Below are positions 52,092 through 53,506 of a DNA stretch of 64,000 nucleotides, piece by piece. The position numbers were made by a program, and so were the translations under genes. The notes beneath the pieces are model-generated. The model was not told the origin of the DNA, did no database searches, and worked only from the letters and a program-made list of their open reading frames with translations. The first letter of the stretch is position 1. Each line of letters begins with the position of its first letter. Origin of the DNA: an uncultured Aurantimonas sp. (lineage in GTDB: Bacteria; Pseudomonadota; Alphaproteobacteria; Rhizobiales; Rhizobiaceae); NCBI GenBank assembly GCA_947488615.1, contig CANKZU010000012.1:1-64000 (forward strand), written 5' to 3'.

Positions 52092-52775
52092 TCAGGCCTG
52101 CGCGGCCCGATAGGGCAGGAACTGCTGCATGATGATCCGGTAGGGCACCAGCGCGAAGACGGCGATGAGGAGTTTCACTCCCAGATCGCCGAGCCCCCAG
52201 GACACCCAGCGGGGGGCCTCGACGGCGAAAGCGCCGAGGAGCGGCGCACTTTCCAGCGCGAAGGGCTCGTTCGGCCCGAGCAAAACAAAGGCCGGCGCGA
52301 AGGCCACTGTGAAAAACACCAACGTATCGAGCACCGACCCCGAGATCGACGAGGCCGCCGGCGCCCGCCACCAGCTTGCCCCCCGCAGCCGGTTGAAGAC
52401 GGCGATGTCGAGAAGCTGGGCCGCCAAAAACGCCGTGCCCGAGGCAATGGCGATGCGGAACAGGCGCTCGGCCGCCGTGGCGTAACCGAGCAGGCCGAGA
52501 TCGAACAGCAGCGGCGGCACCATGATCGAGCACAGCACCGCCATGGCAAAGCCGGCATAGACGGCGCGCCGCGCCACCTGCGGGCCGTAGCGCCGGTTGG
52601 CGAGATCGGTGACCAGGAAGGCGAAGGGATAGACGAAGGCGCCCCAGGTCAGAATGTCCGCGAGCTGAAGCGAACCGAGCTGAACGAAGAGCGGAAACTG
52701 CACGGCGACATTCGCGGCGAGGACGATCAACGTCATCGCCGCGACGGGCAGAAGATAGATTCCCAAGGGCTTCAT
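52092..52775 (-). CDS. queuosine precursor transporter (VUT/YhhQ family)
   Basis: WGAFVYPFAFLVTDLANRRYGPQVARRAVYAGF...AQLLDIAVFNRLRGASWWRAPAASSISGSVLDTLVFFTVAF; start ATG 52775. Confidence 0.92.
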   Translation of the reverse strand: MKPLGIYLLPVAAMTLIVLAANVAVQFPLFVQLGSLQLADILTWGAFVYPFAFLVTDLANRRYGPQVARRAVYAGFAMAVLCSIMVPPLLFDLGLLGYATAAERLFRIAIASGTAFLAAQLLDIAVFNRLRGASWWRAPAASSISGSVLDTLVFFTVAFAPAFVLLGPNEPFALESAPLLGAFAVEAPRWVSWGLGDLGVKLLIAVFALVPYRIIMQQFLPYRAAQA

Positions 52776-52801
52776 TTTTTTAACCTGGGTAATGGAACCA
52801 G
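52771..52801 (-). promoter_or_regulatory. candidate preQ1-I (class I) riboswitch aptamer overlapping the transporter start codon
   Basis: minus strand CUGG-UUCCAUUAC-CCAG-GUUAAAAAAAUGAA: 4-bp P1 (CUGG/CCAG), loop starting UUC and ending in C directly 5' of the P1 3' strand, A-rich tail, CAUU/AAUG P2 pairing; located immediately upstream of a preQ1/queuosine transporter. Confidence 0.65.
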
Positions 52802-52874
52802 TATGCCGGACGCGAGGCTCGCGACCGGCAAGGATCATCGCATGGCCCGGCCACTCGCGCGGCCGGAAACAGCC

Positions 52875-53171
52875 TTAGCTGGCCGCGGCTTCGGCCGCCT
52901 TCTTGGCGATCTGACGCTTGAGCAGGCGGGCACGCTGCGACAGCTCGGCGGCATCCGCCTTGAGCAGGAAGGCGTCGAGGCCGCCACGATGCTCGACCGA
53001 GCGCAGCGCGTAGGCCGAAACGCGCAAACGATAGCGCTGTCCGAGCGAATCGGAAATCAGCGTGACGTTGCACAGATTCGGCAGGAACTTGCGACGCGTC
53101 CTGTTGTTCGCGTGGCTGACATTGTTGCCCGACTGGACAGCTTTGCCAGTGAGTTCGCAGGTGCGTGACAT
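52875..53171 (-). CDS. rpmB: 50S ribosomal protein L28
   Basis: [72 protein letters not shown]. Confidence 0.97.
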
Positions 53172-53220: not shown

Positions 53221-53266
53221 TAGAGCGTCCTTTGTGCGTCCATCCGGACGCACAAAGGACGCTCTA
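53221..53266. repeat. perfect palindromic (REP/RIME-like) intergenic element, 21-nt arms
   Basis: TAGAGCGTCCTTTGTGCGTCC-atcc-GGACGCACAAAGGACGCTCTA. Confidence 0.9.
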
Positions 53267-53277
53267 CCACTTTGATT

Positions 53278-53327
53278 GAGCATCGGAATGACCCAAAAAC
53301 CGGATTCCACTTTTTGGTCCGATGCTC
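53278..53327. repeat. second palindromic (REP/RIME-like) element
   Basis: GAGCATCGGAatgacCCAAAAAccggattccacTTTTTGGTCCGATGCTC; 10-bp outer and 7-bp inner stems. Confidence 0.85.
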
Positions 53328-53506
53328 TAAACGGCGCGATCATCGCTGTCGGGCAAGACCGGAAATTCGACCGGCTCTATAGGCCGCGCAAAGGAAGGCG
53401 TCAAGCCGTTACAACTTTGCGGGATAGCACTTCCGCGCCACAAAAGCCGACTGATCGCACCCCCACGGCTGCGTCGACGATTTTTCTCAGCCTTGAAGGC
53501 AAACCG

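Follow-up and report, generated by a model that had tools for sequence, protein, structure and literature searches.

The element at the yhhQ start codon

The yhhQ locus of the window (the whole stretch of Aurantimonas DNA that was analysed, 64,000 nucleotides) raises the question of whether the start codon of a queuosine precursor transporter gene can itself be a structural strand of a riboswitch. A preQ1-I-like pseudoknot had been proposed here in a sequence-only reading, with the AUG of the transporter gene placed in the second helix, P2. The minus strand from 52801 to 52773 reads CUGG UUCCAUUAC CCAG GUU AAAAAA AUG, which confirmed the proposed layout of a CUGG/CCAG helix P1, a C at the end of the loop, an A7 tail and the AUG (Table 1). 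The A7 run (52781–52775) includes the A of the AUG. The putative Shine-Dalgarno (SD) sequence is AGG in the window and AGGA in most relatives, and its first two bases are at the same time the 3′ end of P1.

Table 1. Features of the yhhQ leader and its neighbourhood, with the related leaders of canonical type.
Feature	Position or loci	Strand	Basis
Whole element, preQ1-I type III-like pseudoknot merged with the translation initiation region	52773–52801	−	Sequence; conserved in relatives
P1 5′ strand, CUGG	52798–52801	−	Pairs with 52785–52788; compensatory changes in relatives
9-nt loop, UUCCAUUAC	52789–52797	−	Same length as E. coli UUCCCUCAC (PMC10622847); last base C
Putative ligand-specificity C	52789	−	Analogy with E. 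coli C14; no binding data
P2 5′ strand, CAU	52792–52794	−	Always CAU with an AUG tail; replaced by CCU with an AGG tail
P1 3′ strand, CCAG	52785–52788	−	Pairs with CUGG; compensatory changes in relatives
SD, AGG, overlapping P1 3′ strand	52784–52786	−	Sequence; SD role inferred
A-rich L3 tail, A6 ahead of the A of AUG	52776–52781	−	Sequence
Putative counterpart of E. coli A27 (preQ1 contact)	52776	−	Analogy to PMC10622847
Start codon AUG of yhhQ, P2 3′ strand	52773–52775	−	Abuts conserved element in relatives
yhhQ-family queuosine precursor transporter, 227 aa	52092–52775	−	PF02592 (Vut_1) 99 bits, TIGR00697 91.8 bits, both over cut-offs
rpmB (ribosomal protein L28), upstream neighbour	52875–53171	−	PF00830; not thought part of the switch
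Canonical type III leaders, Betaproteobacteria	L250, L258–L261, L263–L265, L268, L270–L272, L274, L276, L277		

The assignment of the downstream gene to the VUT/YhhQ family also held, as both profiles scored over their cut-offs. A further in-frame AUG at 52838 is a possible trap for gene callers; homology and the conserved leader make 52775 the likely start of yhhQ. The genome of the window encodes QueF, the maker of preQ1; therefore, preQ1 is made in this organism and can report on supply. The gene rpmB was found upstream in 140 of 142 element-bearing loci, at a spacing of 50–350 nt in nearly all of them.

The lone hairpin of the element is weak (−2.1 kcal/mol), with a P1 of only 4 bp, and P1 was absent from the minimum free energy fold of the full 69-nt RNA by RNAfold, a method that can represent neither pseudoknots nor ligand. 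A scan around the element for promoters and terminators found none. Upstream of rpmB, a near-perfect palindrome (GAGCGTCCTTTGTGCGTCC / GGACGCACAAAGGACGCTC) was observed at 53223–53264; locus L016 has a comparable one ahead of its element. The palindrome of the window has the appearance of a dispersed intergenic palindrome. An inverted-repeat-like stretch (ATCGGACCAAAAAGTGGAATCCGGTTTTTGG...) is also present at 53285–53345 on the minus strand, and resembles dispersed repeats of the order Rhizobiales.

Conservation and distribution

The pattern of the element occurs once in its own 3.9-Mb genome. A pattern search allowing up to 3 mismatches detected it in 349 of 398 sampled genomes of the family, representing 95 of 109 genera, and the reversed control pattern gave one match in the same 398 genomes; the element is therefore conserved far beyond chance. 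Carriers include Mesorhizobium, Rhizobium, Sinorhizobium meliloti, Brucella, Bartonella, Phyllobacterium, Hoeflea and Aurantimonas aggregata. Among the 49 genomes without a match at this threshold, some retain a form with a 10-nt loop (L112, L113), and others that still carry yhhQ have lost the element (L022, L116, one of which is a small genome). In a retrieval based on the protein, the element CUGGU[UG][CG]CAUNNCCCAG.. A7 UG was present at 36 of 37 yhhQ loci of the same family; the terminal AUG was in the yhhQ frame, normally as the start, in 35 of these 36.

The element was not found by reading and descriptor scan in 26 sampled yhhQ loci from other families of the order, in which the rpmB-yhhQ gene order is often kept. 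Outside the family, the covariance model R1 returned only weak A-rich hits (<25 bits), and those that were read did not lie at yhhQ. Coding conservation of the leader was considered and ruled out by in-frame stops just upstream, 1-nt indels and changes in tail length: locus L021 has a stop at −30 together with a 1-nt insertion, and loop and tail lengths differ by single bases in L021, L018, L112, L113 and L288.

The last loop C was invariant in both alignments (A1 and A2). Across the family, the loops fall into the branches UUCCAU, UGGCAU and UGCCAU. Many relatives have UG in place of UU after P1, some have CC or UC in place of AC before the P1 3′ strand, and C or U replaces the gatekeeper A13 in some of them.

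Covariation in P1

P1 was intact in nearly all elements collected by loop and gene, and it was preserved through double changes in several lineages. These comprise CCGG/CCGG (U-A to C-G) in L115, CTAG/CTAG (G-C to A-U) in two genera (L119 and L297), and CTTG/CAAG (G-C to U-A) in L133, from a Limnohabitans metagenome-assembled genome (MAG). A search that required a changed base in the 3′ strand, with no condition on the 5′ strand, recovered two genomes of different genera, both of them compensated (L119/L296 and L297). In 17 distinct rows, trimmed by hand with the linker removed, 99.2% of cells were paired and two-sided changes were seen in 4 of 7 pairs. None of 500 shuffles reached as high a value, and slid controls were 26–45% paired. 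These counts ignore phylogeny. One P1 pair is broken in the Mesorhizobium member L204 (CCGG/CCAG). Covariation in this sequence comparison shows that P1 is real.

Covariation in P2 and proposed capture of the start codon

The second pairing was evaluated by a scan of all loci that fixed loop positions 1–3 (U, U/G, C/G), the loop-end C, the P1 pairing and the A-run. No constraint was placed on the three loop bases of P2 or on the two bases that follow the A-run, and pairing between them was not a condition. The scan returned 28 distinct elements that combine CAU with AUG and 14 that combine CCU with AGG, and no crossed combination was observed. The CCU/AGG elements come from E. coli and from the family to which the Limnohabitans MAG belongs, in which they were seen in 15 of 29 sampled yhhQ leaders. 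P2 is thus subject to a compensated swap, in which a C-G pair with the SD tail AAGG in type III preQ1-I riboswitches corresponds to an A-U pair with AAUG, the start codon, in the element. This covariation lies between clades, and it may reflect no more than one or two events.

The supported P2 is CAU/AUG, of 3 bp. The sequence-only reading had proposed a 4-bp CAUU/AAUG helix; the fourth pair (loop U52791 with A52776) was not conserved, the loop position being U, C or A in relatives. Its claim that the AUG is buried instead of an SD held in part, since pairing of the AUG is supported and the SD is also involved through the 3′ end of P1. The covariation it had suggested testing in yhhQ leaders was found for both helices.

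In one genus of the family (six of its seven members, L278–L284), and also in L010, AAUG was kept although it is out of the yhhQ frame, from which we conclude that the strand is kept for pairing. The SD within the P1 3′ strand is gone in these loci (CCAGCC or CCAGCT), and AUGGA stands a few nucleotides before the likely start. Judged from sequence alone, this AUGGA probably serves as the SD of a start slightly downstream, and the lineage probably has the classical layout in which an SD is captured.

Comparison with known riboswitches

The closest relative of the element is the E. coli yhhQ leader, a crystallised type III preQ1-I riboswitch (PMC10622847), which in strain K-12 reads UUGGG UUCCCUCAC CCCAA UGGUUAAUC AAAAAGG. 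In that structure, a 9-nt loop (U6–C14) ends in the specificity base C14, P2 is formed by C9-G30, C10-G29 and U11-A28, A27 of the SD contacts preQ1, and preQ1 is bound with a KD of about 58 nM (PMC10622847). Published descriptions confine type III almost entirely to gammaproteobacteria and give it an AAGG tail (PMC10622847; PMC11625349). A common form of the element, with the loop UUCCAUCAC, has a single difference from the E. coli loop (C10 to A), and the partner of this base in the tail is changed as well, from AAGG to AAUG.

The element and E. coli type III (PMC10622847; PMC11625349) share a position upstream of yhhQ, a small H-type pseudoknot, a pyrimidine-rich 9-nt loop that begins with UU and has AC before the P1 3′ strand, the specificity C, an A-rich tail before a 3-bp P2, and the expectation of translational control. 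Four of the features that define type III were met by the window: a yhhQ-type preQ0/preQ1 transporter downstream (also present at the element loci checked by profile), the UU ... AC loop of 9 nt (UUCCAUUAC), the invariant specificity C, and 4–5 adenines directly before the P2 3′ strand (A6 before AUG). The SD AAGG as P2 3′ strand was not found, its place being taken by AAUG with a compensating loop change. The P1 of the window has 4 bp, and two rather than the three conserved top G-C pairs (G-C, G-C, U-A). The element further differs from E. coli type III in that its SD has moved into P1, a fixed GNU replaces the variable linker, and its host family, the Rhizobiaceae, is alphaproteobacterial.

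With types I and II (Can, Bsu, Tte; RF00522), the element shares the P1/P2 pseudoknot layout, the specificity C before the P1 3′ strand and the A-rich L3 tail; it differs in its shorter loop, in the lack of a useful RF00522 match and in the use of the start codon as a P2 strand. The preQ1-I loops of Tte and Bsu are 10–12 nt long. The preQ1-I kinship proposed earlier is thus retained, with type III and not types I or II as the nearest kin, and the loop, thought to be shorter than in characterised aptamers, is exactly as long as that of E. coli. SAM-II and preQ1-II, riboswitches of the direct-occlusion kind (PMC10907184), likewise hold the ribosome-binding site within a ligand-stabilised pseudoknot; it is the SD or ribosome-binding site that is embedded in their 3′ helix, whereas in the element it is the start codon.

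A search of the window with Rfam RF00522 (gathering cut-off 39 bits) gave no hit at E ≤ 10, an outcome that the sequence-only reading had listed among those that would count against it. That condition is formally met but invalid: RF00522 also gave no hit, even at an E of 10, on the validated E. coli type III leader, and a model that misses a proven aptamer makes the negative result for the window uninformative. RF00522 was therefore rejected as a deciding test, and represents an annotation blind spot for type III preQ1-I. No report of a start-codon-capturing variant was found in the literature searched, from which subscription papers were excluded, among them McCown 2014, reportedly the origin of the type III model.

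Canonical type III elements were also observed in Betaproteobacteria (NCBI taxonomy), in yhhQ leaders of the family that includes the Limnohabitans MAG; these have UUCCCUCAC or 10-nt UUCCCUCGCC loops followed by AAAAAGG. The Limnohabitans MAG itself (L133:19-776) carries the AUG-capturing form. Its P1 is CTTG/CAAG, no rpmB stands upstream, and the gene that follows encodes a divergent TIGR00697 transporter without close relatives among 250 genomes of the MAG's own family. Transfer or a binning error are both possible sources of this copy. A phage origin was not supported. Nothing was found in a plasmid search, but its 32-nt query was too short for this to carry much weight.

Alternative explanations

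Three other explanations of the conserved element were considered. The one that survives best, although we regard it as unlikely, is that of a real riboswitch that recognises preQ0 or a different 7-deazaguanine as its cognate ligand, perhaps in the UGG-loop branch alone. In its favour, the two positions that in E. coli (U7 and C8) give the preQ1 pocket and the AA contacts their shape are both G in UGGCAU loops, found in a large share of the family (they are replaced wholly or partly in the UGGCAU and UGCCAU branches), and YhhQ imports preQ0 in preference to preQ1 (PMC10622847). With two pocket bases changed, it is possible that UGGCAU loops do not bind preQ1 as type III does, and equal binding cannot be assumed. 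Against this explanation, UU, CC and AC are all kept in the loop of the window, the specificity C does not vary, and QueF provides for preQ1.

A ligand-free, conserved and structured ribosome-binding site, in which a protein-bound hairpin with an A-rich spacer (bound by Hfq, for example, or by L28 as an autoregulator) tunes yhhQ translation, is very unlikely. The merging of the SD AGGA, the A7 spacer and the AUG with the element speaks for it. The proximity of rpmB does as well, and synteny alone does not exclude L28. An A-tract would suit Hfq. However, other families of the order keep rpmB-yhhQ without the element, and no rpmB lies upstream of the Limnohabitans copy. The element agrees in every point with a solved preQ1 aptamer as to loop length, the specificity C, the AC ahead of the P1 3′ strand, the A-tail and the yhhQ context. 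The P2 swap also obeys base pairing, something that a protein-binding site would not require.

A DNA operator, in which a transcription factor binds the inverted repeat CTGG-N9-CCAG at yhhQ, is all but excluded: the P1 double changes would preserve such a repeat too, but the spacing to the AUG is fixed in hundreds of genomes, the asymmetric loop and A-tail are conserved, loop CAU/CCU is coupled to tail AUG/AGG, AAUG is retained when it is not the start, and overlap of an operator with the start codon would be unusual.

Proposed mechanism

The presence of the element, its conservation, the pairing in P1 and P2 and the identity of the gene are shown by sequence comparison. It is likely that the yhhQ leader is a family-wide translational variant of the type III preQ1-I riboswitch that captures the start codon; the ligand, the off-direction and the occlusion of the SD are inferred, in the absence of data on binding or regulation. 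The RNA structure and lineage are well supported, and the ligand and the switching are strongly suggested but remain unproven.

The aptamer and the translation initiation region would form one unit of 29 nt. A 7-deazaguanine, most likely preQ1, is predicted to fill the pocket between P1 and P2 with Watson-Crick pairing to C52789, and A52776 would contact the ligand by analogy with the type III structure. The A-rich tail would dock on P1 and the loop CAU (52794–52792) would pair with the AUG (52775–52773), while the SD (AGG/AGGA), sharing bases with the P1 3′ strand, would be partly closed too. With SD, spacer and AUG locked, initiation would stop, and plentiful preQ1 would shut down import. 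Under preQ1 shortage, the pseudoknot, being weak, would open and leave the AGGA-A7-AUG initiation region free.

A bolder reading goes further, and we favour it moderately. Initiator tRNA carries the same triplet, CAU, as its anticodon. The start codon would, on this inference, be a structural part of the ligand-bound aptamer, the loop CAU would mimic that anticodon, and ligand and tRNA would compete for the AUG; the A of the AUG and the preceding A would then lie at the ceiling or edge of the preQ1 pocket. The lineage with AUGGA as its putative SD would, as part of the same reading, show evolution between start-codon and SD capture.

Significance

The element stands before yhhQ in most Rhizobiaceae, where the Rfam model detects nothing. 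If the proposed reading is true, few natural gene switches would be as small, as its sensor, SD, spacer and start codon together take up 29 nt, and the range of type III preQ1 riboswitches would grow to cover alphaproteobacteria besides gammaproteobacteria. The element would also be a rare case of a ligand directly burying the AUG, in a family whose natural variants separate the sequestration of the start codon from that of the SD.
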